From contig WELB01000349.1 of the NCBI GenBank assembly GCA_009602725.1, positions 1-30,583 of the forward strand: 30,583 nucleotides of DNA, read 5' to 3'. How positions within the stretch are numbered: the stretch's first letter is position 1; each line of letters starts with the position of its first letter. The notes under the pieces were generated by a model. That model saw only the letters and a list, made by a program, of their open reading frames with translations. It made no database searches and was not told the origin of the DNA. Below are positions 690 through 28,355 of the stretch, in pieces. A program made the position numbers and the translations under genes. This stretch comes from Spirogloea muscicola (Eukaryota; Streptophyta; Zygnematophyceae; Spirogloeales; Spirogloeaceae).

Positions 690-1560
690 GCAGTGTGCTG
701 AAAGCTAGTGGCTGTTGTGGCATGTCTTTGCCACTGGTAGCTGTGACATGATGGACGCAGACAAGGTTCTGGACCGTAGCTATTCATTATTTGTGGCGCG
801 AAGGACGTGTGCGGCTGAGCTTTCTTAAGCAGTGGCTACCTTCAGGAAAGCCCTTCATCTCGATATCTATCTCTACTTAAATGTCACTTTCGTGTATTGA
901 TTGCCAAAATTGGTGTTGCACAATATACAATGGATGCCTACTTATGCAAGAACCTGCCTAGTATCCCGAGTCATTTAAAAAGTACTTCGATGAATGAATA
1001 CAAGTGAACCAATTGTCATGAAGACAATGTATATTGAGAAGCATCATAGACTTGCTGGTGGGCTGAGGAAAATGGGAAGTAGTTCTGCTGATGGCCAACC
1101 CGACCAGTGTGCAGGGCCATAGCCTCTCTTTCCTTCATTCCTCCAGTCAAGCATGAGCTGGCCTTGCCACGGTACCTACCTGTGCTGACTCTTTGCCAGA
1201 GCATGCTATCACGTGCCTGGAGCGCACCTCCTCTCCCTGTCATACTTGTACAGTCTCCTTGGGCTTGCTGCTCGCAGGGGTAGTTTGCAACTTGTGGAGA
1301 AGCTCCCGCTACTCATTTCTGTCTATGCTGCCTCCTCTTTGCTGGCGCCAGTATACACCCAATCGTCTCATAGGGATGCACACTACGTTTAATATCCCCT
1401 AGATTATTTTTTCTTTTCTGTCAGGCTGGCCTTCCAGAGCCACGGCCTCCTTTTGAAACAGCCCTTTCCAGCTGCTTGCCGCTGATGACTAGCAATTACT
1501 TAGTGGCGATTGGTAGCATCCACTGGTTTCACCGAGTGTTTGCGCATTTGTGTGGGGCTT
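690..1560. other. No gene recognised
   Basis: About 870 bases without a credible coding frame or recognised repeat. Short frames on both strands lack family motifs and splice context. The segment is less GC-rich than its flanks and contains no retroelement tail or hairpin core that I could identify. Confidence 0.4.
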
Positions 1561-1567
1561 CCCCCTG

Positions 1568-1820
1568 CACCTTGTCCATTCTTCTTGGCTGGCCTTTGAT
1601 TGCCACCGCCTCCTTTTGCAGGGCAACATTCTTTTTGGGCTGGCTTTGTCAGCCCCTCTTCTCTACGGGCGAGCACTTTCTTTTGCAGGGCGACGCTTTT
1701 CCGCCCTCTAGTTATCCTCATTTGCACTTGCTGACTCGAGGTTATTGAGCGCCTCTTGCTGCCGTCTTGGAGACTGATATCTTGTAGATTCCTTTGGGCT
1801 GGCCTTTCACAGGCACTGCC
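1568..1820 (+). mobile_element. Hairpin units joined to a truncated retroelement tail
   Basis: A degenerate hairpin-like unit (about 1579-1620) is followed by a good one, GGGCTGGC-TTT-GTCAGCCC at 1637-1655. The second runs through GGGCGAGCAC and a pyrimidine tract into TTGCAGGGCGAC. From about 1690 the sequence becomes the last 18 codons of the retroelement frame, ending HLHLLTRGY-stop at 1746-1748. A further hairpin core lies at 1796-1816. The order hairpin, truncated tail, hairpin recurs through the window. Confidence 0.6.
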
Positions 1821-2068
1821 TTAAATGCGAAAGATCCGACTATTTTGCGAGAGATTCTCTCCTCTCGAGCGAGTGATTGGTACTGCAAGACTTTGTAAGA
1901 TGACATCACACGCTAGACTGAGTATGCAGTGGCCAGCGCCGCTCGAGGCAAGGAGGCGGAGTATGCTGACCATCTGCAGCAGGACGAGTCCTTCCCCCTA
2001 CTATCGACATCCACGGGGCGTTCGGCGCAAGGTGGCTCGAGCTCCTGCACCGGTTAGCGCGCAGCTCG

Positions 2069-2308
2069 GTGTCCCAACAATACCAAGAAGAGCAGGCCGA
2101 ATCAAAAGCGGCACGCCTTTATCGCCCAGGTGTCTCGCTCGCGCCTGTCAGTTTGCTGCAGCGATCAATTGCACCTGCTTTGCTTTTACGTGCCGGTCGC
2201 GCTTTGGCTGCAGCCTCTGGCTCTAGAAAGGGGACCTGCTACCCAGAGACTACTTTCTCTGACCTGCTGCTGCTCACAAGGGATTCAGAGTACCCAGTGA
2301 CCATGTGA
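2069..2308 (+). pseudogene. Retroelement 3'-end fragment (degenerate)
   Basis: The frame from about 2120 carries the family signature LLLRAGRALAAASGSR followed by a degraded DLLLLTRD, where other copies read LLLLTRGY-stop. The upstream part, equivalent to SLAxVxRMRLAISLQRS elsewhere, is mutated. There is no reverse transcriptase core nearby, so this is a 5'-truncated dead copy. About 60-80 bases after the coding remnant a hairpin unit begins (2365). Confidence 0.6.
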
Positions 2309-2329
2309 ACTGCTGTGTGCTTTAGCGCT

Positions 2330-2430
2330 TTTCTGGCCCCTTCAGAAGTTGTTCTTCTTCATTTGGGCTGGCCAATCACAGCCATCGCCCTTCAGTGGAA
2401 GAGCTTTTCTTCTCGCTTGATTTTTGAACA
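2330..2430 (+). repeat. Hairpin unit, ATTGCC/TGGAAGAGC subtype
   Basis: The core GGGCTGGCCAATCACAGCC (2365-2383) forms a short imperfect stem and is preceded by a CCCCTTCAGAAG leader. It is followed by the subtype-specific ATCGCCC...GTGGAAGAGC. Very similar units occur at 4233, 4316, 4566, 4656, 10503, 11307 and 11482. Confidence 0.6.
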
Positions 2431-2559
2431 GAATGTGCAGTGGAGCTGCAGATGCAGTAATGGTGGATTCTGACGTAAAGAGCGAAAGAAGAGCTACACT
2501 CTGATGATAAGAGCTACTTCTTCTTCAGAGCGAAATGCGTGTGTATTAAGAGATGGAGG

Positions 2560-3711
2560 GCCATGTGTGGCCAAATACAAAGGCAAGCACATTGACAAAT
2601 GTACGTCACCTGCTGCTAAGCTGACCCGCTCAGTAACCACGAGTCAGCACATAGAGGTCGCTAACTGATGCCCGAATACCGGACGGCAATTGACAACCTT
2701 TAAGCTACCAGCTAAGGCTCGACCAGCTTCTGATGCAACGCATGAGCCTGAGCTCGCTGCAGACAAGCTGACACTCGACGACGCAAGAATGACAAGTAGG
2801 CTGCCGGCATGCTCATCTGAGCTGGAAGCATATCCTCAGGTCGAGCGGATCTCAAGCTTGCAATATTCTGCAGTAAGGTGCGGAAGCGAGGGCCCATGCA
2901 GCCGAAGTGCCGATTGCCGCCGGTAGGAGGTGATCTCTGCGGGGGTAGTCAGAGTAGTGTCGGAGCTTTCGCTGCTCAGCACCTCCCACTGCGTGTCCAG
3001 CAGTGTGCGTCGAAGCGGAACTCTCGTGTGCCTCCGTTACCACCACATCCACCAAGGCGCGTGGGCCACCGCAGGTTGTACACCGACAATGTCTAGGGTG
3101 CGACGGTGATGGCGTCCCTGGCAATCCGTGGTGATGGACATTACATTGCTTACTTCCACAATGGCGTGGTAGCCGGCGTCGCGCATCAGGCCCGCCAGGG
3201 CGTCCTGTAGGAGGTTATGGACGCCCACCACCTCAGGGCCTGTGGGATACCGCAGCATGTGGGTGGCAAGGTCTCCGCCCTCCACACGGAAGCCGCACTC
3301 ACACTGAGTTACTCCAATCAGGCAGGTCGGGGGTAGGCCGAGGAACAGCCGGAGAAGCGTCTGGAATGCCTCGGGGCTGATTCTGAAAGCGTTGTGGATG
3401 GCGTGCGTCGTGAGCCAGTCCGTTGCCCCAGTTGTTGCGAGCGATGTGAGACTTGCCAGACTCCTTGGATTGGTCCTGATATCTGGCATCGTCCTCAGCG
3501 ACTTGCGACGCTCGTCCTCAACTGCAGCAACGAGTCTGGCCTGTGCCGCTTTGTCCGGTGCTTGGGCCAGCGCTAAGAAGGGGGTGGGGAGGGTTTGCAG
3601 GGAGGGGAAGGAGCACTTTGCTGACTCCCGGATCCTCCTCAACTGCACTTGGAAGGCGAAGTAGCCTTCCTCCACCTCGGCTGCAGGGCCCGCCAGACAA
3701 GGGAAGCGCAA
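2560..3711 (-). pseudogene. Retroelement C-terminal region, tail type B (frameshifted)
   Basis: Read on the minus strand, 3711-3037 encodes the post-reverse-transcriptase region of a non-LTR-like element: DWLTTHAIHNAF, LRLFLGLPPTCLIG, then a zinc-knuckle-like CECG...H, then DAGYHAIVEVSNV and RRTLDIVGVQP. The reading continues in another frame as LVDVVVTEA, so a frameshift lies near 3060. The spacing of E, D and D resembles restriction-endonuclease-like domains that follow the RT in some LINE proteins; that is inference. The tail continues as SACLQRAQAHALH and ends SDLYVLTRGY-stop at 2630-2632. The 3' sequence 2629-2560 is the type B tail, with a GGCCA...TGGCC hairpin. Inactive. Confidence 0.65.
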
Positions 3712-3716
3712 GGGGA

Positions 3717-4157
3717 GAAAGCGGCTGCTGATATGAAAGAATCGGCTGTGAAATGCCAGCCAGATGCATACAGGTGTTCATGACGGAGCCAAAGGCTAGG
3801 CAGACAGGGCGCCCTCAATACCCCCGTGTCAGCAGTAGGAAGTCAGATGAGCTGAGGGGAGGAAGAGCAACCCCGCTGCGCAAGCCAGAGGCTGCTGCAA
3901 GGGCGCGACCAGCGCGGCGGTGCAAAGCAAGCGCTTGGGAGCGCTGCAGGGACATAGACAGTCGCATACGGTAGCAGGACACCAGACCCAAAGGCACCGA
4001 GCCACCGGGAAGGGCAGCACCCTGCTCCCGGCGCCGCTGGTCAGCTTGAGAGGCCAGCAGCGAAAGTAACGAGGACCACCGACCCCCGTAAAAGGGGAAA
4101 AGAAAGCGGCTGCTGATATGAAAGAATCGGCTGTGAAATGCCAGCCAGATGCATACA
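3717..4157. repeat. 56-bp perfect direct repeat bracketing a 329-bp insert
   Basis: The 56 bases at 3717-3772 are repeated exactly at 4102-4157. The 329 bases between (3773-4101) are a minus-strand retroelement tail. The repeated sequence itself contains, on the minus strand, a hairpin-unit core (GGCTGGCATTTCACAGCC). This is either a long target-site duplication made on insertion into an older hairpin unit, or a tandem duplication of hairpin units around the tail. Confidence 0.75.
3815..4101 (-). mobile_element. 5'-truncated retroelement tail inside direct repeats
   Basis: The minus-strand frame reads RMRLSMSLQRSQALALH, RRAGRALAAASG and SDFLLLTRGY-stop (stop at 3815-3817). It keeps an open frame of more than 90 codons back to the right-hand direct repeat, so it is a relatively young copy. 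About 42 bases of 3' sequence follow the stop before the left repeat. The copy lacks everything upstream of the last domain, as expected from abortive target-primed reverse transcription. Confidence 0.65.
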
Positions 4158-4204
4158 AAAGGGGAGGAGGGAAGCGACCTGGTGCCAGCAACCGAGCGGT
4201 TCTT

Positions 4205-4445
4205 CAGAGCGGAGGAAGCTTGTACACTACTTTGGGCTGGCCTCTCGCAGGATCGCCCTCTACTGGGAGAGTCTCTCACAGCCAGCTGCCTTACACTGAG
4301 TGGCTGTTTCCTTCGGGCTGGCCTCGCACAGCCATTGCCTTACACTGGAAGCGCTCTTCGCTCTTACAAGGTGAAGTGCTCGTCCATGGAGGGCAGGGGC
4401 TGGGAAAGGCCGGCCCACAAAGAATAGACAAGGTCTGAAGAGCCA
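4205..4445. repeat. Cluster of hairpin units in inverted arrangement
   Basis: Plus-oriented cores start at about 4233 and 4316 (GGGCTGGCCTCTCGCAGG; GGGCTGGCCTCGCACAGCC). A minus-oriented unit covers 4380-4445, with core CAGGGGCTGGGAAAGGCCGGCCC and outer arm AGACAAGGTCTGAAGAG. The outer arm is the reverse complement of the CTTCAGACCTTGTC leader found before plus units elsewhere. The facing orientation gives an inverted-repeat structure of about 240 bp with no coding content. Confidence 0.55.
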
Positions 4446-4499
4446 AAGGAAGCCGAAAAAAGGAATATCACACAGCTAGACACCACACGACCGCGAAGG

Positions 4500-4775
4500 A
4501 AGCTCAGTACCCTCGAGTGAGCAGCCATTGCCTTGCATTGAAGGAGCTGTGCTTTTTGAAATTTGGGCTGGCCTCTCACAAAGTTGGCCGTACATGGAGA
4601 ATGCTTTCGTACTTTCTGCAGCTTCGAGACTTTTCAGACTTTGTACAGTCCTTTGGGCTAGCCTCTAACAGACATTGCCTTACGTTGGAAGAGCTGTTTC
4701 TTCCATTGAAAGAGCTGTTTCTGTCTTTCTTCCAAAGGGCACCCACAAAACAATGACAAGGTCCAGAAGAGATAA
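4500..4775. repeat. Tail scrap and inverted hairpin pair
   Basis: A minus-strand scrap at 4500-4525 retains the LLTRGY-stop signature. Plus hairpin cores follow at 4566 and 4656. The second is preceded by TTTTCAGACTTTGTACAGTC (from 4634), and the matching inverted arm, CACAAAACAATGACAAGGTCCAGAAGAG, ends at about 4771. The two arms delimit a roughly 140-bp miniature inverted-repeat-like unit. Confidence 0.5.
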
Positions 4776-4829
4776 GTAGTGGATAGCACGAATTGAAAGC
4801 AATAATCAAGTATGTCTTTCCGGTAACCC

Positions 4830-5445
4830 CCAGGTTGCAGCCACAAGTTGGGGATTACTTAGCAGCTAGCAGCCGGAACGCACTCCCCCTGCCGGTGTCC
4901 AGAAGCGCCACGGCCAGAACGCAGATGCAAAGAAAGTGCACTCCCAAAGAAGATGAGCTCGCCCATACAGTGCACTCCCAAAGAAGGTAGTGGCTGGGAA
5001 AGGCCAGCTCAAAAAGAATGGACAGGGTCCGAAGAGTCGAAAGGCGCCTAAACTACACAGCTATGCACGAGGCTACCGCAGATGAAAGCTAAGTAACCAC
5101 GAGTGAGCAGCAGCAAGTCGGAGGAAGTCGCAGCTGGGAAGAAGAAGTGGCACTCCCAATGGGGGCAAGGGCTGCGAAAAGCCAGCCCAAAAAGAATTCA
5201 CAAAGGTTCAGAGGGGCCTAAGAGCGGTGAGCAGCTACAAAGGGGCCTGAGGATGCAATGGTAAAACAGGGGGAGGATGGCTGGGAAGGTGTGAGCCAAA
5301 GATCGCTGCCGTACGTAAGAAAAGATTGCGAAACACCAGGGAGCCCGCGGCGTTGAGTCAGCCTGCTCCCCTTGCCGCCAGCAGGTCGCGCAAGGAAGGT
5401 GGCTCTCCCCAAAGGGGCAAAAAGCTAGCCCCAAAAAGGGTTGAC
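4830..5445 (-). mobile_element. Several degraded minus-strand retroelement tails and hairpins
   Basis: Degraded minus-strand remnants of the tail are visible at about 4840-4920, 5088-5160 (SSDLLLLTRGY-like) and 5290-5400 (a NAAGSL then RSLAHT-like remnant). Minus hairpin units start near 4987, 5167 and 5414, each followed by the AAAAAGAAT...GACA arm. The block 5295-5390 closely resembles 7665-7775, so both derive from the same part of the element. No intact reading frame remains. Confidence 0.5.
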
Positions 5446-5473
5446 AAGAACATTGACAATAATTGACAAGCGC

Positions 5474-5608
5474 AAGCTGGTGCACATACGTCAAGCCACC
5501 GAGCCCAGAATCTCGGTGGATGTTGAGGGGCTCTTCTATGGACTCGCAGTAGTTGACATGAAATATCTCGTGCAAAGGTGGCCACAGCTGCAACGCTGTG
5601 ACGTCTGA
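5474..5608 (+). other. Unassigned coding-like fragment, repeated at 7778
   Basis: The plus frame reads KLVHIRQATEP, RISVDVEGLFYGLAVVDM and ends LQRCDV-stop at 5606-5608. It has no ATG at its left end and no recognised family. A related segment with KLVQHAK and VDVDGEGL lies at 7778-7872, and a short RGPELQNCDI-stop scrap lies near 10590. Because it recurs beside element tails it is probably part of an element or of a captured gene fragment rather than a host gene. Confidence 0.3.
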
Positions 5609-5786
5609 GGAGAAATCCGAACAGAAAAAGATAGTCGCGAAGTGTAGTAGCCACTGAACGTGCTGCCAAATGTGCCATCTCCCCAAGCAGCTCATTCATA
5701 GTCAAGCTTCATCACAGCCACCATCCTTTCGAAATTCGCTTTTCATAACCATTGGGCTTTCACGTCAACCTTCTCTCACGTTTTCA

Positions 5787-6021
5787 AGGGGCTGGCTCTT
5801 CACAGCTACGGCCATCCATGAGGAGCTGCCCGGCTTCAACGCTGCGGGAGCGCTTGCCCAGGTCTTCCGTATGCGGCTGTCAGTCTCTGTCTAGCGTTCC
5901 CTGGCTCACGCAGTCCACTTGCGAGCAGGGCGCTATGGCTGCTGCATCTGGGTCTAGGCGGGGTGCCTCTTTCCCAGCTGCGAGTTGCTCCGATTTGCTG
6001 CTGCTCACTCGTGGTTACTAA
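5787..6021 (+). mobile_element. Hairpin unit followed by retroelement tail
   Basis: A hairpin-like core (GGGGCTGGCTCTTCACAGCT, from about 5789) precedes the tail PGFNAAGALAQVFRMRLSVS. An in-frame TAG interrupts at about 5892. The frame resumes with AMAAASGSRRGASFPAASC and SDLLLLTRGY-stop (6019-6021). The stop codon shows this copy is dead. It lies tail to tail with the minus copy at 6177-6305. Confidence 0.65.
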
Positions 6022-6176
6022 GCTTTCTTCTGTGTCAGTCTCGTGCACAGCTGTGTGTTAGGCTACAAAAAACTTAGTAACCCCTACTAAGAAAAACGAT
6101 TGGATGTTATCCAAAGCCAGAGAAGATGCCGAAAGAAAAACTACACAATCAGACACAAGACGATGCAGATGGAAGC

Positions 6177-6305
6177 TCAGTACCCACGTGTGAGCAACAG
6201 CAGGTCCGAGTAACTCGAAGCTGGGAGTGAGGCACTCCGCCGAGACCCAGGCGCAGCAGCCATAGCGCGGCCTGCCCGCGTGTGGACGGCGTGAGCCAGG
6301 GAGCA
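6177..6305 (-). mobile_element. Retroelement tail, minus strand
   Basis: Reverse-complement reading gives SLAHAVHTRAGRAMAAAPG, then SASLPASSYSDLLLLTRGY and a stop at 6177-6179. Only about the last 43 codons of the element remain. With the plus copy ending at 6021 it forms an inverted pair spaced by about 155 bases. It ends roughly 300 bases upstream of the QCR8 start codon, so element DNA lies close to that gene's promoter region. Confidence 0.65.
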
Positions 6306-6529
6306 GCCGGAGGTCGGAGAAACTAGTCTCCTGGTAGCTCCCTCTCCTCCTCCTCTCTCCTCCTCTCTTCCTCTCTTACATTCCTTCTTTCTTCCGTCCG
6401 GGTGGCCTGCTAATCTGGAAGCGTATTCCTAATTTGGCCTCTTCGCCACGGGCGACATTCGCTGCTGCATGCCCCGACCCGCTGCATGCCCCGCCTGCAT
6501 GTCCCCTCTATTTGAAGCGGCCGTCGCTG

Positions 6530-6608
6530 CACGACCCGTCCGCCCAGCCGCCGCCGCCGCCGCCGCCCCCACCATCGCCGCCGCCGCAGTATAACGGCCG
6601 TCGCTGCG
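6530..6608 (+). promoter_or_regulatory. GCC-repeat 5' leader of QCR8
   Basis: A CCG/GCC trinucleotide-rich tract (about 6548-6590) directly precedes the QCR8 start codon. Similar GCC tracts lie at the 5' end of the gene at 11,715 and at 27,470. It is probably transcribed leader and core-promoter sequence. A role in expression is inference; no TATA-type element is evident. Confidence 0.35.
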
Positions 6609-7264
6609 ATGGGTAAGCTGCCGGTGCGCGTGAAGTGCGTGGTGTACACGCTATCGCCATTCGAGCAGAAGGTGCTGTCAGGGCTGTACAGAAACCTGAG
6701 CCACGACGTGGCCACGAAGGTCAAGAACAACTTCGTAAGCTGGTGCTTCTGCGCCATTCCCGTCGTTGGCACCGTGTGGTGAGCCTCGCCGCCCCGCCTG
6801 CTCCTTGCCTCGCCAGCTGGGCGCACTGGCGGAGGCGGGGACCCGCGGAGGCGGGTCTGACATGCTGGCGACCAGAAGTAGCTTGTAGACACTGGCAGCG
6901 CCAGGCAACGATCTTGGTACTTGCCAGGATGAAGGGTAGAGTATTTGGACGCAGCAACGCTTTTTTGTGTTGTGGTTTGCGATGTGGGCCACTCTGTTGC
7001 ATCATCTGAATTGTGAGGAGCCATTGTGATGTCCTTATTGGCAGTCCTGCGTCGCGGTGCCTGGCATACCTTGGCTCTCTGCCATGGTGCATACCATATT
7101 CTTGACTCAAAGCCAGTCCAGGCCAGGTCTTTGCTGTAGCAGTCGTATAAGAGAGAGAGCCAGTCTTTGAAAAAGAAGGGGCCAGGACAGCTGATGCTTG
7201 GCGCCTCCTTCGCAGGTTCGCTAAGTACTACCGGGAGCAGGAAAAGCTCCACGAGCGATATTGA
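6609..7264 (+). CDS. QCR8: Cytochrome b-c1 complex subunit 8 (ubiquinol-cytochrome c reductase)
   Basis: Two exons, 6609-6778 and 7216-7264, join across a GTGAGC...CGCAG intron of 437 bases and encode 72 residues, the usual plant length. The N-terminus reads MGKLPVRVKCVVYTLSPFEQ, closely matching plant subunit 8. One hydrophobic segment (about residues 43-58, SWCFCAIPVVGTVWF) is the single inner-membrane helix, and the charged C-terminus ends EQEKLHERY, typical of the family. The protein is a small structural subunit of mitochondrial complex III that packs against cytochrome b. The splice restores the Trp codon TG|G exactly. The start is the first ATG after a GCC-rich leader. A retroelement tail begins about 12 bases after the stop, so the 3' UTR probably lies in element DNA. 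Confidence is high because both ends and the helix fit. Confidence 0.93.
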
Positions 7265-7275
7265 ACATTGACGGA

Positions 7276-7425
7276 GTGCTTCTCCCTGCAGCGGTCTTTA
7301 GCATTTGCCATCCACTTACGTGCAGGCCGCTAATTGGCTGCTGTCTCTCGGTTCCGTCAGTGCGACGTTTTTCCGCCCTCTCAATATGTTGACTTGCACT
7401 TGCTGACTACAGCTGATTGAGCGCC
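7276..7425 (+). mobile_element. Retroelement tail immediately downstream of QCR8
   Basis: From about 7276 the sequence GAGTGCTTCTCCCTGCAGCGGTC matches the segment that encodes LAISLQRS in other copies; compare 7940-7963. It continues through degenerate versions of the AGRALAAAS and FPPASYSDL segments to a mutated terminus near 7420 (TTGCTGACTACAGCTGATTGAGC). The frame is broken. Its left end lies about a dozen bases after the QCR8 stop codon. Confidence 0.55.
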
Positions 7426-7439
7426 CACTTGCTGACGTC

Positions 7440-7710
7440 TTGTTGACTAGTATCCTACTTCTTCCAGAGGGCACCAAAAAAGAGTAGGTCCGCAAGAGAC
7501 GGATGGCAGATAGCTCGATATTAACAAGCAATCGTTAAGGATGGCTGCACAGTAAGGATGGCTGCTCAGTGACTTCATAGTCAGCAGACGCAACTCAGGA
7601 ATGCTAGCAGCCGAATCGCAGTCCCCTTGCCGGGACCCAGAAGCGGGACTGTCAGCACGCCGAGGCGTGAGCCAAAGAATGCTGCAGTGACATTTAAAAG
7701 CATGCAATAC
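7440..7710 (-). mobile_element. Degenerate hairpin arm and minus-strand retroelement tail
   Basis: At 7462-7500 the sequence GGGCACCAAAAAAGAGTAGGTCCGCAAGAG resembles a decayed minus hairpin arm. On the minus strand 7700-7560 reads as LWLTPRRAD-like, GSRQGDCDSAAS and ELRLLTMKS, a mutated version of the tail signature. It is truncated and frameshifted. Confidence 0.5.
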
Positions 7711-7777
7711 ACCAGGGCCACAGAGCGTCAGCCTTTAAGCAGCCTGCTCCCCTTGCCGCCAGCAGGATACAGCTCGT

Positions 7778-7872
7778 TGCAAAAGCTGGTGCAACACGCC
7801 AAGCCACCGTGCCCGAAAAGCCGTGTGGACGTTGATGGCGAGGGGCTCACTAATAGAATATGCGGAGGCTGA
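7778..7872 (+). other. Unassigned fragment related to 5474-5608
   Basis: The plus frame encodes KLVQHAKPPCPKS then VDVDGEGLTNR and stops at 7870-7872. It aligns with KLVHIRQATEP...VDVEGLFYG at 5474-5608, and the preceding CTCCCCTTGCCGCCAGCAGG block is also shared. The origin of this fragment is not recognised. Confidence 0.3.
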
Positions 7873-7902
7873 CAAAAATGGCAAGCCAAAGCTAAAGCAA
7901 AT

Positions 7903-7939
7903 TGGCGAGCCGCATCTCTTCTAGAGATGCGGCTTGCCA
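7903..7939. repeat. Near-perfect 37-base inverted repeat
   Basis: The arms 7903-7918 and 7924-7939 pair over 16 positions with one G-T wobble, around the loop TTCTA. The right arm is the beginning of a retroelement tail (the RMRLA codons), so the left arm is an inverted copy of the same sequence. This fits a 5' inversion made during element insertion. Confidence 0.7.
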
Positions 7940-8068
7940 TCTCCCTGCAGCGGTCTTTGACATTTGCCGTCCACTTGCGGGCTGGCCGCGCCTTGACTGC
8001 TGCCTCCCGCTTCCGACAGGGCTGCCCTTTCCGCCCTCCAGTCATTCTGAACTGCACTTGCCGTATTA
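7924..8068 (+). mobile_element. Retroelement tail, plus strand
   Basis: The sequence encodes MRLAISLQRSLTFAVHLRAG, then RALTAASRFRQG, after which the frame drifts through a degenerate FPPASY region to about 8065. It starts abruptly inside the inverted repeat at 7903-7939. Only the last domain is present. Confidence 0.6.
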
Positions 8069-8244
8069 TGTAGCCCTGTTTACTTTACCCTGGACTCTGC
8101 CTGAACAATGTATCGGCTTGAATTGGCCTCCATTCAATTTCATGCGCCCCGCGCGTCTCTCTCTCTTCTCCCGACTATCGAGCGCCCACTCGCAGATGTC
8201 ACCGGGAGCAATTCCGTACTTCCGGCCCTTCCAGGCCGCCTTGT

Positions 8245-8303
8245 CCATTTTTTTGGGCTGGCCTTTCCCAGCCACCAGTCAATCTGGCCGCGCTGGAGCG
8301 GGC
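8245..8303 (+). repeat. Hairpin unit with CAGTCAATCTGGCCGCGCT extension
   Basis: The leader CCTTGTCCATTTTTTTGGGC runs into a core GGGCTGGCCTTTCCCAGCC (from about 8255), followed by ACCAGTCAATCTGGCCGCGCT. The same core and extension recur at about 9281 and 9691. After each extension the sequence switches to a different part of the retroelement frame. Confidence 0.7.
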
Positions 8304-9208
8304 GGCAGCTGAAGTGGAGATCGGCCAGATGCCCTTTCAGGTTGCCCTCCGCTCTGCCCGCGACGAGCTCCTGGCGGTCCACCCCAACATGTCTGAGCAG
8401 ATCGTCCCTTTCACCCACTTCGCCCACACCCCTGACCTGCGTGCCCAGGCACGGCGCTGGTGGAAAAAGCGGCCTCTGACCAGGTGGTGGAGCTTCTCCC
8501 TCCGTCTGACCTTCGCGGCCGCGCCCGGCTCCTCTCAGCTTCTTCCCCTGGGGCGGCGTTGTGGGTATCGACGCTTTTACTGTACGCGGCGCTCACCGTG
8601 CCGGATGAAGTCTTCAGGACGGCGGTCCACCGACTCTTGGGCCTCGTCCCTCCCTGCCTCGTGGGCGTCTCTCAGTGCGAGTGTGGTGCCCGTCACGCTG
8701 ACCCTGCGGAGCTGGCTGCGCATATGCTCCGTTGCGCGCACGGGGGCGAGCGGACCGCTACCCATGATCTCCGGCGAGATGATATGCAGGGGTACTTCGT
8801 TCATTCTTTTTTTGGGCTGGCTTTTCCAGCCCCTATCCTCAATGGGCGCGCACTATCTTCTTGTATGGAGGCGGGCTTCAAGGTCGCTGTGGAGAACTCC
8901 TCAGTAATGCCCATCCAGCTGGGCACGGACGGCCAGCCCCATACACGGCGCGCCGACCTGGTCGCCATCCAGCCCGGCGGTGATCCCCGCATCATCGTCG
9001 ATGTGGTGACAACTGGCTGCTCAACGTCGCCGGGTCCCTCGCTCAAGTCTTCCGAATGCGTTTGGCCATCTCGATGCAGCGGTACCTTGCCTTCGCGATT
9101 CACTTGCGCGCAGGCCGAGCTTTGGCTGCGGCCTCCGGCTTCCGTCAAGGCGATGTCTTTCCGCCGGCTAGCTACTCAGACTTGCATCTCCTGCCTAGAG
9201 GTTACTGA
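8300..9208 (+). pseudogene. Longest plus-strand retroelement copy, rearranged
   Basis: It begins with AAAEVEIGQMPFQVALRSAR, matching the PAAEVEEGYFAFQVQLRR start of the minus copy at 3711. After a frame change it reads LLYAALTVPDEVFRTAVHRL, GLVPPCLVGVSQCECG, then HMLRCAHGG and THDLRRDD. A hairpin unit interrupts at 8795-8868. The frame resumes as EAGFKVAVENSSVMP, RRADLVAIQPGG and IIVDVVTTG. It then jumps to NVAGSLAQVFRMRLAISMQR and ends YSDLHLLPRGY-stop (9206-9208). The Cys/His cluster plus E...D...D spacing suggests a zinc-knuckle and endonuclease-like module downstream of a lost RT. The jump after DVVTTG removes the AFAALAIDVHGAFG segment seen at 9742. Frame changes make it inactive. Confidence 0.65.
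8795..8868 (+). repeat. Hairpin unit inserted within the retroelement frame
   Basis: The core GGGCTGG-CTTTT-CCAGCCC (8814-8832) lies between codons for DLRRDDM and EAGFKV. The related minus copy near 3200 is continuous at this point (LLQDALAGLMRDAGYH). About 75 bases are extra, and the reading frame stays open across them. The 3' side shows the usual CCTATCCTCAATGGGCGCGCACT continuation in slightly changed form. Confidence 0.65.
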
Positions 9209-9234
9209 GCATTCTCTGGCTGATATCTTAGTCC

Positions 9235-9485
9235 TAGTCCTTCGTACTCCGGCTCCTTCAGACCTTGTCCATTCCTTTGGGCTGGCCTTTCCCAGCCACC
9301 AGTCAATCTGGCCGCGCTTCCTTCGACTACGCCAATCCCACCAGATCGGCGTCGTTTGCGGGGCACGCGGTCGGGCAGGCGGCCCGGGAGGAGCTCGCCC
9401 ATAGAGAAGAAAGTGCTCGCCCATTGAGAATAGGGGCTGGAACAACCAGCCCGAAAAAGAATGAACAGAGTACGAGAAGGGGGCC
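9235..9485. repeat. Inverted hairpin pair enclosing a captured element fragment
   Basis: A plus unit (leader TTCAGACCTTGTCCATTC, core from about 9281, CAGTCAATCTGGCCGCGCTTCC extension) and a minus unit (GCTCGCCCATTGAGAATAGG, core 9425-9444, arm AAAGAATGAACAGAGTACGAG) face each other. Between them, 9319-9395 encodes a piece of the element reading DYANPTRSASFAGHAVGQAA. The layout resembles a miniature inverted-repeat element carrying a captured fragment. Confidence 0.55.
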
Positions 9486-9528
9486 AGGGGAAGCGCTAAG
9501 TAACAGAAACAAAGCTGCTACGAGACAC

Positions 9529-9665
9529 TCAGTAACCCCTGCTAAGCAGCCGCAGATCAGAGATGCTGGGCTCCTGGAAGTGGGTCCCCTGGCCAGAGCC
9601 AGAGGCAGCAGCGAGGGCTGGTAGAGAAGGATTCCCGGGGGAAGAAGCGCAAGTATGCTCAGGCT
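9529..9665 (-). mobile_element. Retroelement tail, minus strand
   Basis: The minus frame reads PALAAASGSGQGTHFQEPSI then SDLRLLSRGY-stop at 9529-9531. The nearest relative in this window is the plus tail at 15,208-15,389, which shares the GSGQGTRFQEP variant. Both may therefore belong to one subfamily. Confidence 0.6.
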
Positions 9666-9671
9666 CCCTCG

Positions 9672-9895
9672 GACTTAGTCCATTTTTATTGGGCTGGCCT
9701 TTCGCAGCCACCAGTCAATCTGGCCGCGCTTCCTGCAAAGTATGCCGACCACCCGGTTGGTGATGCATTCGCGGCCCTGGCGATTGATGTGCACGGGGCC
9801 TTCGGCAGCCGCTGGCTGGATCTCCTCCAGCGGCTTGCCCGTCGGGCCATTGATCGGATGCCGGGTCTGCCTGAAGAGCTCGCCCATAGGAAGAG
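9672..9895 (+). mobile_element. Hairpin unit joined to element fragment (AFAALAIDVHGAFG)
   Basis: The leader ACTTAGTCCATTTTTATTGG and core GGGCTGGCCTTTCGCAGCC (from about 9691) are followed by the CAGTCAATCTGGCCGCGCTTCC extension. The joined frame then reads KYADHPVGDAFAALAIDVHG, AFGSRWLDLLQRLARRAI and PEELAHR. This is the segment between the endonuclease-like module and the RMRLAISLQ tail, and it is missing from the copy at 8300-9208. It ends at a GCTCGCCCATAGG arm of hairpin-unit type. Confidence 0.55.
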
Positions 9896-9917
9896 ATCGT
9901 GTATTAGAAAGAAATGT

Positions 9918-10125
9918 AGGCCAAATGGCCAGGTACAAAGGCAAGCACATCTGAAAATCTACATAACCTACAGCAGATTGACCCGCTCAATAACCACGGG
10001 TCAAAACATAAAGGTCACTACTCGATGCATGAATACTAGATGCCAGGAACGGAGCCCTTCTGCCACCTACTAGAGCTCGCCCAGCTTTCTGGTGCAAGGC
10101 ACTCCATAGGGAGCGCTGCCCGGCT
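9918..10125 (-). mobile_element. Retroelement tail with type B 3' sequence, minus strand
   Basis: The minus frame carries ALHQKAGRALVGG and SSSDLYVLTRGY-stop (9987-9989). Below the stop, 9986-9918 is the type B tail, including GAGCGGGTCAA and the palindrome GGCCATTTGGCC (9921-9932). The same type B tail occurs at 2560-2632 and twice in 27,630-27,862. The copy abuts a plus-strand tail at 10,110. Confidence 0.65.
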
Positions 10126-10475
10126 TCAACGCCGCCGGTTCGCTTGCACGAGTCGTCCGCATGCGCCTGGCGATATCGCTTCAACGCTCCCTTGCCCACG
10201 CCGTCCACACGCGAGCAGGCCGTGCTATGGCCGCGGCCTCCGGGTCTCGGCGGAGTGCCTCATTCCCTACAGCTAGCTATTCCGACCTGATGTTGCTCAC
10301 TCGCGGACACTGAGCTTTCCTTCGCATCGTCGTGTGTTTTTTGCCTTGGTTTGCAATGTAGTCCCTTTTTCGGCACCTTTGGCTATGGACTGTCTATTCT
10401 TTCTTTGGCTTTGGACATTGTCCATTCTTTTTGGGCTGGCTTTGCCAGCCCCTCTTCTCCATGGGCGAGCACTTT
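10110..10475 (+). mobile_element. Retroelement tail with type A 3' sequence and perfect hairpin
   Basis: The frame GFNAAGSLARVVRMRLAISL, QRSLAHAVHTRAGRAMAAAS and SDLMLLTRGH-stop (10,311-10,313) is uninterrupted. About 120 bases of 3' sequence follow, ending in the perfect hairpin GGGCTGGC-TTT-GCCAGCCC (10,433-10,451) and CCTCTTCTCCATGGGCGAGC. The copy at 27,905-28,100 has the same stop-to-hairpin sequence, so hairpin and tail travelled as one unit. Confidence 0.7.
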
Positions 10476-10489
10476 CCTTTCAGGCCGCC

Positions 10490-10870
10490 TACATTTCTTT
10501 GAGCTGGCCTCCCACAGCCGTCGCCCTCTACTGGAAGAGTCCTTCTTCTGACGGCCATTGCCTTACATTGGGAGAGCTGTTCCTTTGAAGGGGGCCAGAG
10601 CTGCAAAACTGCGACATCTGAGGGTAGCCTCCAACAAAAGACTGAGGAGCTATCTGTAGCAGACGGTGACTTTGCTGCAAATGTGCCTCTTTTCTCTAAG
10701 GGCGAGCACTAGCAATCGGTAGATGTGGTTTGGCTGTTCGACGTTGCCACCACCGCCTCCAAATGAGCTTTCTACCCTTTCGGGCTTGCACGTCAACCTC
10801 CTCTTATTCCTTTGGGGGGCTGGCTCTTCACAGCTAACGCCCTTCACAAGAAGCAGCGTCTTTTAGTGGC
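10490..10870 (+). repeat. Further hairpin units and decayed element sequence
   Basis: Cores of the ATTGCC/TGGAAGAG subtype lie at about 10,503 (GAGCTGGCCTCCCACAGCC) and 10,819 (GGGCTGGCTCTTCACAGCT). Between them are scraps including a GGGCGAGCACTAGC arm near 10,700. No continuous frame is recognisable. Confidence 0.45.
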
Positions 10871-11290
10871 CGCATCATTCACAAACTCATCGACGATCGA
10901 CTTGAGAGGCTTGCTTAGCTGCTGTGTCAGGCGTGCACTACACAGGCTGTCGGCCAAGGGCTGCACATATGTGGAGCAAGGCGCCCCCCAGCTGCTCCAC
11001 GCTCTTCCTGCCGCGCCATCTTGCCCAAGCTCGTAGGTCGACCTGCTCTTCTGCGCCAGCCATTGCCAGTGTTCCACAGCTCTCTCCCACCTTGTCCTTG
11101 GCATCAAAGCCCACGAAGCATCAGCGCACATTATTCCATGAGTGATATCAGATCGTCATGCACCTCTGTATTGCTCAAGGAAACCTTCTTGCATACCTGA
11201 GTATGAGCTGTTGCACGAAATTCCAGGGCTTTTCAGGCCCCTCCGTCATTTTGGCTTTAGGCCCCTCCGTCATTTGGCCCCTTTGAACCT
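10870..11290. other. No gene recognised
   Basis: A minus-strand frame of about 95 codons (10,844-11,131, containing LTQQLSKPLKSIVDEFVND) shows no recognised family and no splice or start context. It could be a decayed exon. Around 11,220-11,280 there is a short tandem duplication of a GGCCCCTCCGTCATTT-like sequence. Confidence 0.3.
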
Positions 11291-11294
11291 TTGT

Positions 11295-11535
11295 CAATTC
11301 ATTTCGGGCTGGCTTCTCACAGCACCTTGCCCACAATAGGAGAGCCACTTCTTCTTTTTCTTTCTGCCAGTGGCATACGGGATGCTCTTGAAGCATGCAG
11401 GACAATGATCGCAGGAGTCATGACGTACAGTTCCATGCTTTTTGCTCCTTTTGGCCCTTTCAGACCCTGTGAATCTTCTTTGGGCTGGCCTCTCTCAACA
11501 ATGGCCATTGCCGTGAATAAACAGAAAAGCTATTC
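11295..11535 (+). repeat. Two hairpin units in tandem orientation
   Basis: Cores lie at about 11,307 (GGGCTGGCTTCTCACAGCA) and 11,482 (GGGCTGGCCTCTCTCAACA). Each has a CCTTT...GACC/GAACC-type leader and an ATTGCC-like continuation. The stems carry several substitutions, so these copies are older. Confidence 0.5.
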
Positions 11536-15389: not shown

Positions 15390-16227
15390 GTGCTTTGTAG
15401 CTGCTTCAGTTTCTCTTTGTGCTTGTTCTTCTAAGGAAAGAGGACTTATGTAATGACATGCATACACTTGGCTTGACAAGGTCACAAAATGACCAAGGGA
15501 CCTGTCTGCAAAGCAATGACGAACTGGAGGTCATCAACACAATGCTGGATAACAGTGCTGCTAGTCGCTGAACGTCAACCGATGCAAACGAGCGCAAGTA
15601 TTGCCTGCTTCTGTCTGTCATGTACAACGGTGAGCTTCCAAGGTAGAGCTTGTTTAGAAGGGGGCGGTGACAGTGAGAGGCCAGCCAAAAAGCAATGTAC
15701 AAAGAGTTGGCAAGTCATGGGGATCAGGTGCTTCGACCCCGTCTTCAAACCCTTGGAGGGGGGAACTTGGCAAAGAGCCATCGGATAAGAAGAGCTTGTG
15801 GCATCGCATGTTGCCAGTCTGCAGCCAAATCATATAGTCAAGTCACAGTAGGGTCAATTCCTTTCTGAAGAAGCTCCCCCCATTTTCCGGGAGCTGGCTA
15901 CTGACAGCCATTATTGCCCTTGGTGGAGCTTGCAATTTCTTCGAGGGCTGCGTCCCAATAGCAGTTAGAAACAAATTTGGACTGCTTCACATGGTGTAAT
16001 ACTGCTACAAGGTGTTGAAATTGCATGTCCATCTCCGCCTTCAGGGTCACTGATGGCTTACTCCAGCGCCATAGATGAGCGGTAGTTTGCTGCTAGGCTG
16101 TGGCACTTGCCTAGTACATTCCCAACCTGGGTTCTGTCTCTGAAGCTAAGTGAAAAGTATGATGGTAGGCACGAGTTCTTCTTATTACTGGTACTGCATG
16201 TAAGTACGCTTGATCGAGTAACATACA
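15390..16227. repeat. Intergenic segment with two hairpin units; 3' flank of the HERC gene
   Basis: A minus-type hairpin arm (GTGAGAGGCCAGCCAAAAAGCA) lies at about 15,675-15,700. A plus unit (GGGAGCTGGCTACTGACAGCC, then ATTATTGCCC) starts near 15,888. The rest has no credible frame. The part next to 16,228 should hold the 3' UTR and polyadenylation signal of the minus-strand ligase gene. Confidence 0.45.
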
Positions 16228-25200: not shown

Positions 25201-26317
25201 GCCCAGTTGGCCGTATTCCCCCAGGCCCCACGACGCCAATGAGCCATTTGCTGGCACCCCAACATGCCAACGATTTTGTGTGATGCATGGGCTTTTGACA
25301 GGGCGAACACAAGTCATTCAAGGGTTGAGTAGAGCTACAGAAAGGCTTGGGAAGGCGACAGAAATCACACTGACTAAAGCAGACATTCCTGGTCCTCCGG
25401 CTAGTGCATGAGCAATGACATGCAAGATATTTGGCGTGACTCATTACAAACAAATGCTTTATATCAGTGTTCAGAATTGTGATGGTGTTGTCAAGCATCC
25501 AGCTACTGTGGAAGGCAAGGAAAGGCTAAGCAAGGCAAGATAAGGCACTGCAATGGAAGCACCTGTGACGGCAACCGAGTGGGCTTGGTCGCAGCTAAGG
25601 TGGACGACCTTGTGCACATCCAGGGCCTCGATGCGCACAGGACCTGCCTGCACGTCCGCATCGGAAGCGGCCGAGTCCCTTAGCAGCACGGAGACATCCA
25701 CAGGGTCCGCCCTATTGGTGGGGGGCGCCTGCAGGCCGCCACGACTCCTCACACCGAGCTGGCCGGCATCATTGCTCCCGGTTGAGTAGACCTCCCCGTC
25801 ACCTGCACACAGAGACTCTAACATAGTCAACTACTGGTAACCTCATCATTTAGCCAATTTTCATTCAACAACGAAGATCAGTGGACATTGCACCGGCACA
25901 AGCTTGTGAGGTTGTGCACGATCTGCTCCAATGGCAGCACATTTGATGACAACCACTTGAGGCCAATGTATGCAACAACCAGCAGGAATGAGATTTTTTG
26001 GCTGTACCTGGGGAACAGGTGCTGGTCTTAGACCCTAAGCCTGATTATTACCTGAATCCATCAAGTTGCTACATTACATGGTGAAAGAAAGATCCAAACC
26101 CTTTATCGCAGTTTGGCTGAGGGTCAGGTCCAGCAATTGGCGTGGCACCTGTGAGGAAGAGGGTGTGATAGTCGCCGGCGGCTGCATGGACGATGTCCTT
26201 GGCATCGAGCAGGTGCAGAGCTGCAGGGACGCACTCATAAGCTCTCACATCACCCAGGCCCAGTTGTCCGAGGTCCCCACGGCCCCACGCATACACTGCA
26301 TGGCACAAAAGGAACAT
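16228..26317 (-). CDS. HERC-type E3 ubiquitin ligase (RCC1 propeller plus HECT), 32 exons
   Basis: Exons: 26317-26149, 25802-25563, 25250-25086, 24859-24741, 24620-24573, 24351-24187, 23893-23697, 23497-23359, 23309-23262, 22960-22439, 22355-22293, 22212-22101, 21839-21766, 21422-21333, 20970-20866, 20757-20672, 20498-20444, 20304-20209, 20116-20050, 19912-19857, 19547-19455, 19283-19206, 18994-18901, 18608-18529, 18284-18222, 18001-17864, 17666-17578, 17461-17380, 17226-17143, 16988-16914, 16709-16582, 16348-16228. They sum to 3,741 bases (1,246 residues plus stop) in one frame. Residues 1-430 are a seven-bladed RCC1 propeller, 431-604 a Ser/Glu-rich linker, 605-903 a helical middle region, and 904-1246 the HECT domain that transfers ubiquitin from E2 via a cysteine thioester to substrate lysines. 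Weak points: the start (ATG 26315-26317, with a possible upstream exon), the exon 8-9 junction and the donor after 20050. Two-domain order matches small HERC proteins. Confidence 0.9.
23262..26317 (-). other. RCC1 beta-propeller region of the HERC gene
   Basis: Seven blade signatures occur in order on the minus strand: [85 protein letters not shown] and [14 protein letters not shown]. Each is followed by the family's hydrophobic/H-x-L/A-L-T ending (for example [28 protein letters not shown]). Introns fall repeatedly at the same place in the blade, just after the ALTG turn, as expected from a domain built by exon duplication. In RCC1-family proteins the propeller usually binds partners or small GTPases; the target here is unknown. 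Confidence 0.9.
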
Positions 26318-26366
26318 ACATAGCGTATACTTCAGCTGCAAAGGCCAGAGTTGAAGGAAAGCTGGA

Positions 26367-26408
26367 CTTAGGGTTAGGGTTCGTGATTATACGGGGTTTA
26401 GGGTCTAG
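26367..26408. promoter_or_regulatory. Telo-box-like motif cluster at the 5' end of the HERC gene
   Basis: TTAGGGTTAGGGTT and GGTTTAGGG lie about 50-90 bases upstream of the proposed HERC start; on the coding strand they read CCCTAACCCTAA and CCCTAAACC. In plants such telo-boxes occur in promoters of housekeeping genes. A promoter role here is inference, but the position supports a transcript starting near this point. Confidence 0.4.
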
Positions 26409-27198
26409 TGAATCTGTAAGCCACAGCAGCTTCTCTACCGGGGACACAATGCAGCTCAGAACTGCAGACCCGACTCGGTACCAGGCGGAGATACCGAAAT
26501 GCAGTGAATCTGATGAACCCTGGATTAACTTTGTTATTATTGACCCCTGGCCCTTCCTGGTCATCAATTGACAAAACCCCTGTTGTCTCAATCCTCGTTC
26601 ATTCTCCAGCCTATTCCCTACATGAAGCCAAGCTATGCACCAGCATTGCTCATCCTCAATCTGCACCCGCCTAGGGTGCCGCAGCCTATACATCCTTCGA
26701 CTGGCCAACTTGCTTACGAGTCCCTACACTCCCTCGCTAGCAGCCAGTCAGGATATCCTGAGCTCCTTGCCCTGCTTCTCCAAGACTAGAGAGCCCTCAA
26801 ACTTACCTCAGGTAACATAACTCTCATTCTAAAAAGTACATATCAAGTAGGATAAGCTTCAGTCACTATACTAGCTCATCTACAAGAAAGGCTTATCAGA
26901 AGGGCTCAGCACACCTTCCACAGCCGGCCGCTCGATGCGAGCCTGGGGCGTGTAGCTCCGCCTCAGACGCCCTTCTCCTGCACAACCGGCGACGGAGATG
27001 GACGGGGGCGAGGCTCAGTGACCACAGAGAGAGCTGCGACGACCTTGGGGCCGCACTCGGCCTATTCGAGTATGAAAATCATTTCTAGGTTTCTGAGCTG
27101 GTATACAAGATTTCTGATAGTTATTATGACTCAGTAGGCCGCGGCCAGAGCAGGGCCGGCGGCGTCGCAAGGCCAGCCGCCGCTCGGCCCGTCCTTCT
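26409..27198. other. No gene recognised upstream of the HERC gene
   Basis: Nearly 800 bases without a convincing frame. A minus-strand stretch near 27,050-26,960 (VVAALSVVTEPRPRPSPSP) could be an upstream exon or leader but does not connect in phase with the first RCC1 exon in any way I can show. This interval is the likely promoter region of the ligase. Confidence 0.35.
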
Positions 27199-27476
27199 CT
27201 AAACCCTAAATGCTAAACCCTAAGCCCTCCGATCTCTCAGCGGGTCCCGGCGCGGCGGCAGGCCCCGTCGCCGCAGCGACGCCGGAGGCCCAGCGCCGCC
27301 GCCGCAGTGGCTGCCGTAGCGCCGTTAAGGGAAGGCGAGAGCCCGAGCTCCGCCACGAGCCTCGTCGCCAGCGGCGGCAGCGGCGGCAAGATTGAGGCCG
27401 GACCGGCGCGGGCAGGCTGTTGCGCGGCGTACCGCTCATGGCGACGGCGGCGGCGGTGGCGACATCGGCGGCGGCT

Positions 27477-27511
<35 letters not shown>

Positions 27512-27572
27512 TGCGGCGGGGGATGTCAGCTCGCCATGCATGCAGCCAACCCCTAACTCGATTGTCAATTAG
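27199..27572 (+). other. Orphan GCG-rich 5'-end-like segment with telo-box
   Basis: Two CCCTAAA-type units (27,199-27,227) precede GC-rich sequence with Ala/Gly/Ser-rich frames and a long GCG run (about 27,477-27,513). An ATG at 27,438 opens a 44-codon frame (MATAAAVATSAA, poly-Ala, GDVSSPCMQPTPNSIVN-stop at 27,570-27,572). The composition is that of the 5' ends of the other two plus-strand genes here. It stops where a retroelement tail begins (27,563), so it may be the leftover 5' end of a disrupted gene. It could equally be simple-sequence DNA. Confidence 0.3.
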
Positions 27573-27900
27573 CGGCCTTTACGTGTTAACCCATGTTTAC
27601 TGAGCAATTTTGTGTATCTGAATAAACGAGGGCCAAATGGCCAAGTACAAAGGCAAGCACATCTGAAGACCTACATAACCTTACAGCAAGTTGACCCGCT
27701 CAGTAACCAGGGTCAAAACATAAAGGTCACTAATAGATGCCTGAATACTAGATGTCAGATATGAAGCCCTTCTGCCACCAACATGTTTACTGAGCGGGTC
27801 AATTTGCAGTAGGTGATGTACGTCATCAGATGCGCTTGCCTTTATGCTTGGCCACTTTGGCCTTCGATTGTTTCATATTCGAAAGCTCTCCTAAAACTTT
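27563..27900. mobile_element. Retroelement tail scraps forming a type B foldback
   Basis: A plus scrap (SGLYVLTHVY-stop, about 27,570-27,602) is followed by a minus-oriented type B tail (27,630-27,740, beginning with the palindrome GGCCAAATGGCC). A plus-oriented type B tail (27,784-27,862) ends GGCCACTTTGGCC. The two type B tails pair as arms of an imperfect foldback of about 230 bases. No open frame of length is present. Confidence 0.6.
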
Positions 27901-27901
27901 G

Positions 27902-28110
27902 GCCGCCGCCTCTGGGTCTTGGCGGAGTGCCTCGTTCCTTGCAGCCAGCTATTCCGACCTGATGTTGCTCACTCGCGGGTACTGAGCTTCCCTTTGCATC
28001 CTCGTGTGTTTGTTGCCATGGTTTGTAGTCCCATTTCGGCACCTCTTTCTTTGGCTTTGGACATTGTCCATTCTTTTGGGCTGGCTTTGCCAGCCCCTCT
28101 TCTTATGGCG
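27902..28110 (+). mobile_element. Retroelement tail with type A 3' sequence and perfect hairpin
   Basis: The tail reads AAASGSWRSASFLAASYSDL then MLLTRGY-stop (27,983-27,985). The 3' sequence (GTGTGTTTGTTGCCATGGTT and onward) and the perfect hairpin GGGCTGGC-TTT-GCCAGCCC (28,078-28,096) match the copy at 10,110-10,475 closely. The two copies lie more than 17 kb apart. Confidence 0.65.
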
Positions 28111-28129
28111 AGCACTTTGTTTTTTGGCT

Positions 28130-28350
28130 GTGGGTCCACCAGGAAAGGTGGACTCTTTCAGTAGAGAGAAAGGCGCTTCATGTAGAGGGCGATGGCTGTG
28201 AGTATCCAGCCCAGAAAGAGAGAGAAAGACGCTTCCAGGAGAAAAGGATTATCAAATCCTAAACCCTAATCTAGAAAAGAGAAGGAACGAATGTCGGAGG
28301 AGAAATGAGACATTTCCAGTAGGGGGCGATGGCTATGATTGGCCAGCCCA
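28130..28350 (-). repeat. Minus-oriented hairpin units
   Basis: Units at about 28,185-28,220 (GGGCGATGGCTGTGAGTATCC, then AGCCCAGAAAGAG) and 28,325-28,355 (GGGCGATGGCTATGATTGGCC, then AGCCCAGGAATAAG) are reverse complements of the 2365-type unit. They face the plus unit at 28,078. A CCTAAACCCTAA motif sits between them (28,258-28,270). Confidence 0.5.
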
Positions 28351-28355
28351 GGAAT

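Follow-up and report, generated by a model that had tools for sequence, protein, structure and literature searches.

What are the short hairpin units that recur in both orientations along a contig of the streptophyte Spirogloea muscicola (Zygnematophyceae), and how did so many copies come to lie so close together? The question is raised by contig WELB01000349.1 of assembly GCA_009602725.1, of which positions 1 to 30,583 of the forward strand were analysed (30,583 nucleotides (nt), here termed the window), and in which a first-pass annotation had listed 27 hairpin cores with a common leader, considering them either 3′ ends of a retroelement or independent miniature elements. The units are quite probably the 3′ termini of a family of long interspersed nuclear element (LINE)-like non-long terminal repeat retrotransposons, with the leader and hairpin most likely acting as a cis-acting signal for the reverse transcriptase of the element. 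Units are referred to below by position, those on the minus strand with the prefix m.

A recurrent hairpin unit

The hairpin-unit family is real. All 27 listed cores were located, at most about 10 bases from their annotated positions, and the addition of one at 1586 gave 28 candidate units, which were scored by leave-one-out, the profile being rebuilt without each unit and the omitted copy compared with the best match among 20 dinucleotide-shuffled versions of the whole window. The best shuffle match was exceeded by 27 of the 28 units (26 of the 27 annotated) in a first run with 120-nt extracts, in which close neighbours overlapped (the 1586 extract held part of unit 1637), and by 27 of 28 again with trimmed extracts, where passing scores of 14.9-48.4 compare with best shuffle matches of 9.0-12.1. 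The minus-strand unit near 5431 (annotated at 5414) fell below the shuffle level in both runs, with a trimmed score of 7.1. The core GGGCTGGC, with at most one mismatch allowed, has 83 occurrences where 50.9 are expected, a count reached by none of 100 shuffles; several cores depart from it by a single base, including unit 4655 with GGGCTAGC and units 10501 and 15891 with GAGCTGGC. Both the common leader and the two annotated subtypes of post-hairpin sequence were borne out, and a third type is present as well (ACCAGTCAATCTGGCCGCGCT... at 8255, 9279 and 9691).

The cores are unevenly spread, with 23 of the 28 in 1.2-11.5 kb, two at 15.7-15.9 kb, three at 28.1-28.3 kb and none in 16-27.5 kb. 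Weaker additional matches were recorded at 1423-1466 and 10545-10594 (14.9 and 14.8 bits), and two minus-strand matches, at 3735-3761 and 4086-4146, lie under the shuffle level. A 66-bp direct repeat (3710-3772 and 4092-4157; 95% identical) holds a degenerate minus-strand unit hairpin.

The units as probable LINE 3′ ends

Self-comparison, together with a profile of 314 columns built from 13 segments, most covering the end of an open reading frame (ORF), its stop codon, the untranslated region (UTR) and the unit, places units such as 1796, 2365, 9279, 10433, 28078, m4416, m5010 and m9452 some 50-120 nt past the stop of an ORF end that recurs in the window and has the pattern RAGRA.AAASG...YSDL.LLTRGY. 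Differences among four ORF copies (six pairs summed) number 93, 61 and 183 at codon positions 1, 2 and 3, a bias from which the ORF is taken to be real coding sequence. Twenty ORF pieces, on both strands, were recovered by tblastn in the LINE-dense parts, with a further match at 27330-27551 discounted as sitting in GGC-repeat sequence. The upstream part of the ORF carries, by eye, QCECG...HMLRC and RRADLV...IVDVV, motifs comparable, as we read them, to the zinc knuckle and endonuclease-like portion at the C terminus of certain LINE proteins, and perhaps to the CCHC motif and following PD-(D/E)xK domain of R2-like LINEs with a restriction-like endonuclease; structure prediction of 8460-9001 was too poor to use (mean pLDDT 42.1), and a PDB search with 3037-3711 returned one weak and unconvincing match (E 0.072).

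Profile matches start anywhere from column 1 to 261, with 21 of 32 ending in the last 11 of the 314 columns and the other 11 ending earlier, in a model that stops at the tail by construction; among core-anchored pairwise alignments, one of 87 runs past +59 of the query. Between subfamilies, homology likewise tails off beyond about -15 in the upstream direction (the pairwise alignments have a median 5′ extent of -15), so that these alignments alone show no truncation, which is evident instead from the profile and the mapped inserts, the three smallest of which begin about 10, 22 and 32 nt before the core. Such varied starts are what 5′ truncation predicts, and independent miniature elements are not needed to account for them. 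Profile and pairwise alignments together give a common 3′ end with 5′ truncation, and the 3′ boundary, which the first-pass annotation had proposed to inspect, is consistent among the copies in the window. Of the two origins that it had considered, the 3′ end of a retroelement is thus the one supported, by the profile running from ORF to unit, the codon-position bias, the variable 5′ and common 3′ ends, and units inserted in the LINE ORF; the tail-only copies would be products of 5′ truncation and not a mobile family in their own right. No A-run of at least 6 occurs in any of the 28 unit tails, which argues against recognition of poly(A). Two LINE copies, 3037-3711 (minus) and 8296 (plus), can first be recognised from one shared ORF position (AAEVE), each soon after a same-strand remnant or unit (3735-3761 and 8255, respectively), which could be coincidence or a common 5′ start.

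Constraint on the leader and hairpin

Nine copies retain the unit along with ORF or UTR sequence. Their mean pairwise identity reaches 0.76 in the leader, 0.82 and 0.90 in the two arms and 0.72 in the loop; elsewhere it amounts to 0.44 at third and 0.69 at first and second ORF positions, 0.46 for the UTR and 0.48 for the tail. A conserved element is thereby placed in the 3′ UTR, adjoining the 3′ end, and, with the copies broken, the pattern reflects constraint on the source elements. Selection on the sequence of the leader and hairpin is supported, and these identities give the leader an equal share with the hairpin in the conserved signal.

Their conservation suggests that leader and hairpin are probably a recognition element for the reverse transcriptase. 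They would form the site at which the element's own enzyme takes up the RNA and starts target-primed reverse transcription, which would begin some 25-35 nt downstream, at the end of the tail. The binding and priming steps are proposed by analogy with stringent-type LINEs, for which PMC4176376 reports that the protein binds a 3′ stem-loop, and that loss of the stem-loop abolishes retrotransposition in experiments.

Insertions in a nested LINE cluster

The longest copy (8296-10478, plus), comprising ORF pieces with a QCECG...H...C motif and a C-terminal domain, a stop, a UTR and unit 10433, is broken up by LINE-derived pieces. Within its ORF, unit 8814 (8794-8859, plus, subtype A), recognised by the profile, adds 22 residues in frame relative to the uninterrupted minus-strand copy at 3037-3711. 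Unit 9691 (9659-9737, plus, subtype B), also recognised by the profile, occupies 79 nt with AAGTATGC on each side, and both flanks align to one continuous stretch at 1944-1972, overlapping by AAGTATGC; this insertion is convincing because of that empty site and not because of the 8-bp repeat alone, a match that is not unusual, a score of at least 8 being reached by 66 of 1979 random pairs. At unit 1637 (1627-1682, plus, subtype A; leave-one-out score 30.3), 52 nt (1628-1679) are bracketed by two copies of CTTTTGCAGGGC[A/G]AC, a direct repeat of 12-15 bp with a score of 12, which 6 of 1979 random pairs attain. Target-site duplications are likely at both places (12-15 bp at 1637, 8 bp at 9691).

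Three further LINE-derived pieces lie between the ORF pieces of the longest copy in running order: a 5′-truncated LINE with unit 9279 (9021-9319, plus, subtype B; 241 bits), an antisense 5′-truncated LINE with unit m9452 (9407-9620, minus; 131.7 bits), and an antisense copy of a LINE family described below as family X (about 9899-10101). From the order of the pieces, in a region that no uninterrupted copy spans, we infer that all three are inserts in one copy. The window thus holds one nested cluster, whose nesting is in part read from this order, and which would explain the many copies, their two orientations and their head-to-tail junctions. Site-specific insertion after subtype B tails was also entertained, and was abandoned when it became possible to see 9279 and 9691 as insertions into a single LINE copy. 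The best reading of the locus, and in our judgement a likely one, is a stringent-type LINE 3′ tail together with truncated insertions, holding the tail alone, within a cluster of nested LINEs.

Observations against this reading

Several observations weigh against reading the units as LINE 3′ termini that carry a recognition hairpin. No reverse transcriptase domain or other Pfam family was matched among the ORF pieces tried, which are C-terminal fragments from which that domain would be missing anyway, and the LINE label therefore rests on architecture. Relatives, by protein or by pattern, were absent from the viral contig, genome contig and phage collections searched, leaving none to check against. 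Flanking direct repeats are at chance level (best scores 4-6) in 16 of 21 tail-ended elements, and across 21 elements tested, a score as high as the 12 at 1637 could by itself arise by chance. Nor is the hairpin universal among the LINEs of the window, as two hairpin-less ends and family X demonstrate: when the minus-strand ends at 4725-4785 and 7450-7515 are aligned to m4416, each has a gap of 18 nt at an identical position, corresponding precisely to the hairpin, and family X has a third type of tail, with a different GGCC-loop-GGCC hairpin near its end and a different 3′ UTR. The inner stem shows no covariation, and the excess of folding in the units has no strand preference (mean z-score -1.07 sense, -0.94 antisense).

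The hairpin-less ends belong to LINE 3′ ends at 4725-4939 (minus; 17.9 bits), where leader is joined to tail, and 7450-7723 (minus; 53.5 bits for the ORF part). They share other sequence (4865-4928 with 7603-7666, 78%), and may therefore descend from one inherited deletion in a single subfamily; alternatively, the hairpin may have been lost later or may be non-essential. Skipping of the folded stem by reverse transcriptase could be the source of so exact a loss. Self-comparison identifies family X 3′ ends at 2541-2742 (minus), 9899-10101 (minus), 27612-27782 (minus) and 27784-27872 (plus), of which two form an inverted pair at 27.6-27.9 kb, and LINE ORF ends are recognised beside the copies at 2541 and 9899. 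The direct-repeat scores of 14 at m28212 and 10 at m5010 come from repeats that are part of the unit tail itself.

Structure of the hairpin

The first-pass annotation had described stems kept while bases differ, hinting at selection on structure by compensatory change. This was not confirmed, with inner and outer stems pairing no better than shuffled ones and the proposed check for stem covariation, run on the copies in the window, finding none. The short form of the inner stem is paired in 80.9% of cells against 80.5% when shuffled, its alternative form in 80.1% against 80.1%, and RNAalifold predicted 0 pairs on 27 aligned copies (m5431 left out); the inner-stem arms hardly vary, so power to detect covariation is low, and arm variants mostly disrupt pairs. 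Folding z-scores average -1.07 in 27 units and 0.09 in 60 control windows, and fall below -2 in 6 of 27 and 3 of 60, respectively; units 4565, 4655, 11306 and m15687 are among those that fold no better than controls. We infer that the hairpin would form in RNA.

A more elaborate structure is a tentative and rather doubtful possibility, namely a conserved two-tier RNA in which an outer stem is formed by the leader and the post-hairpin segment, with covariation among the subtypes. An outer leader-tail stem is visible in single-copy folds of 2365, 8814, 10433, 15891, m4416, m9452 and m28349 and would tie the post-hairpin subtypes to the leader, and in a slip-limited test leaving out copies 1586 and 1637, the native score for slips 2-4 was reached by 169 of 5000 swaps, an exploratory result from one of nine slip sets, uncorrected. 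In the other eight sets, however, 395-4107 of 5000 swaps reach the native score, free duplex swapping gives -9.0 kcal/mol native against -8.99 swapped (9741 of 20000 as good), and in a fixed register 60.3% are paired against 58.9% shuffled, so that the stem suggested by the folds was upheld neither by the free swap test nor in the fixed register. Unit m28212 was also considered as a case of a compensated stem, and proved instead to hold a direct repeat, probably where a unit is joined to an older unit tail.

Alternative origins of the copies

The joins of a unit tail to a truncated ORF on the same strand might have been made by template jumping of the reverse transcriptase within one insertion event, a process described for R2, rather than by serial nested insertion. 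Joins of this kind occur at 1586, 5789, 8255, m5010 and m5188, with the other half of the ORF unrecognised upstream by eye; resumption of the ORF beyond the unit at 8814, 9691 and probably 9279 nevertheless identifies insertions, and antisense inserts (m9452 and the X element) seem to exist as well, leaving template jumping an unlikely account. It is quite unlikely, too, that the short copies are an independent non-autonomous family resembling short interspersed nuclear elements (SINEs), with a borrowed LINE tail and mobilised in trans. Three inserts of about 52-80 nt (1637, 8814 and 9691) do hold little but leader, hairpin and tail, some solo copies share 70-80 nt upstream that are not recognised LINE ORF (5717/10746 and 2284/28433), and green-algal SINEs with LINE tails are known (PMC3747384). 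Against such a family, 5′ starts differ in the way truncation predicts (about -10, -22 and -32 from the core), the sequence at 2284-2365 directly follows a LINE ORF end and is hence the UTR of that LINE, and no tRNA, 5S or 7SL head was matched by Rfam (gathering score) or ARAGORN, although a decayed head could escape.

The small size and hairpin of the unit might also recall a DNA transposon of the miniature inverted-repeat transposable element type. This origin is scarcely credible, with a variable 5′ end (starts at column 1 to 261), continuity with the LINE 3′ UTR in place of fixed ends, and, by eye and short of a systematic search, no inverted repeats at either end of inserts 1637 and 9691. 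A bolder elaboration of the LINE origin would have related subfamilies keep an RNA handle of about 65 nt (leader-tail helix plus GGCUGG hairpin) despite divergent tails and 3′ UTRs, with tail-only copies of about 50-80 nt mobilised in trans; it is very unlikely, and trans-mobilised tail-only units with a two-tier handle are weakly supported. If true, those copies would rank among the smallest retrotransposing units.

Other copies and genes in the window

The remaining units were identified by the profile, some of them with LINE sequence attached. On the plus strand, an ORF C-terminal end, stop and short UTR precede unit 1796 (1686-1842; 95.3 bits), an ORF C-terminus (2003-2284) and UTR precede unit 2365 (2003-2409; also tblastn), and an ORF end and UTR precede unit 28078 (27896-28120, subtype A; 139.9 bits). 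Unit 8255 (7873-8295, plus, subtype B; also tblastn) likewise follows an ORF C-terminus and UTR, the ORF having an extra stretch of about 100 nt; in the profile alignment this stretch, 8062-8170, breaks the LINE near the ORF end and is of no recognised origin. On the minus strand, the LINE 3′ end with unit m4416 (4373-4535; 101.7 bits) has a tail that meets the tail of unit 4315 (4308-4358, plus), and an ORF end and UTR lead to unit m5010 (4966-5143; 130 bits), whose tail is duplicated. Unit 1586 (1566-1625, plus; 30.4 bits, leave-one-out 22.2) comprises leader, hairpin and tail, joined by eye to a truncated LINE ORF piece; the tail of m5188 (5143-5221, minus; also tblastn) adjoins an ORF piece at 5140, and unit 5789 (5752-5847, plus; also tblastn and leave-one-out) runs into the ORF piece 5817-6018.

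Further units on the plus strand include 4234 (4201-4272), behind which a partial second unit can be made out by eye, 4565 (4543-4625), diverged and the weakest to pass (leave-one-out 14.9), 4655 (4603-4701), 10501 (10477-10546), followed by a partial unit, 10817 (10771-10872; leave-one-out 18.9), 11306 (11253-11352), 11482 (11410-11518), with a diverged tail, and 15891 (15858-15960; leave-one-out 16.1). Those on the minus strand are m15687 (15620-15721; also leave-one-out), m28212 (28141-28247; also direct-repeat scan), m28349 (28287-28427) and the doubtful m5431 (5377-5449), which reaches 14.4 bits with itself in the model and fails leave-one-out. Stretches of about 20-40 nt are, by eye, duplicated within unit tails at 4966-4938 (minus), 9407-9390 (minus), 4655-4724 and 10501-10594, and fit what slippage or repeated priming at a LINE 3′ end might leave.

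Genes of nuclear type are present in the window, which we read as nuclear DNA, with RCC1 repeats at about 23.7-26.3 kb and a trypsin-like protease near 29.5-30 kb. The start of cytochrome b-c1 subunit 8 lies at 6609-6779 (Pfam Cyt_b-c1_8, E 2.6e-18; best PDB match 8bel_G, presumably a plant protein, E 3.5e-14), in a gene at 6609-7264 with apparently two exons (the second by eye) inside a LINE-dense stretch. A subtelomeric setting signalled by interstitial telomere repeats was rejected, TTTAGGG occurring 5 times and 13 of 100 shuffles reaching 5.

Relation to known LINE tails

Stringent-type LINE tails (UnaL2, ZfL2-1 and ZfL2-2, and the R2 and SART1 3′ UTRs) share with the units, as described in PMC4176376, a conserved 3′ UTR stem-loop sequence near the end, no poly(A) and 5′-truncated copies. 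The sequence differs, however, and here the constraint falls on sequence without covariation and the function is predicted; compensatory change in the stem, a mark of stringent-type tails, gave no signal in a comparison of low power. A second likeness is to the plant L1 3′-end hairpin (LINE1-1_ZM group, ZmSINE2/3), a conserved 3′ end of about 50 nt with a hairpin in a green-lineage LINE, whose stem, unlike the present one, is backed by compensatory changes according to PMC3747384.

Among green-algal elements, Zepp and Zepp-like LINEs similarly form nested clusters, according to PMC3446292 and PMC8226300 (also PMC11005252). Zepp is described in PMC3747384 as ending in poly(A), whereas none of the 28 tails here does, a difference of description that argues against simple membership of this LINE in Zepp. 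RandI/Dualen LINEs and their SINEX partners in Chlamydomonas are, in the same source, green-algal LINEs without poly(A) whose tails are common to short elements; their tails end in (ATT)n or (CTATTT)n, whereas 8 of the 28 tails here hold a short TTC-type repeat, with 2-3 units and no longer run in any tail.

On the reading proposed here, ordinary truncated LINE tails can take on the look of a striking hairpin family, and the nested copies supply both filled and empty sites. In PMC3747384, a model for L1-clade LINEs has ancestral green-plant LINEs recognising their own RNA by a specific 3′ sequence. If the reading proposed here is true, the S. muscicola family would be a LINE of the green lineage whose 3′ signal is short, strongly conserved and other than poly(A), and would bear on that model of ancestral recognition.

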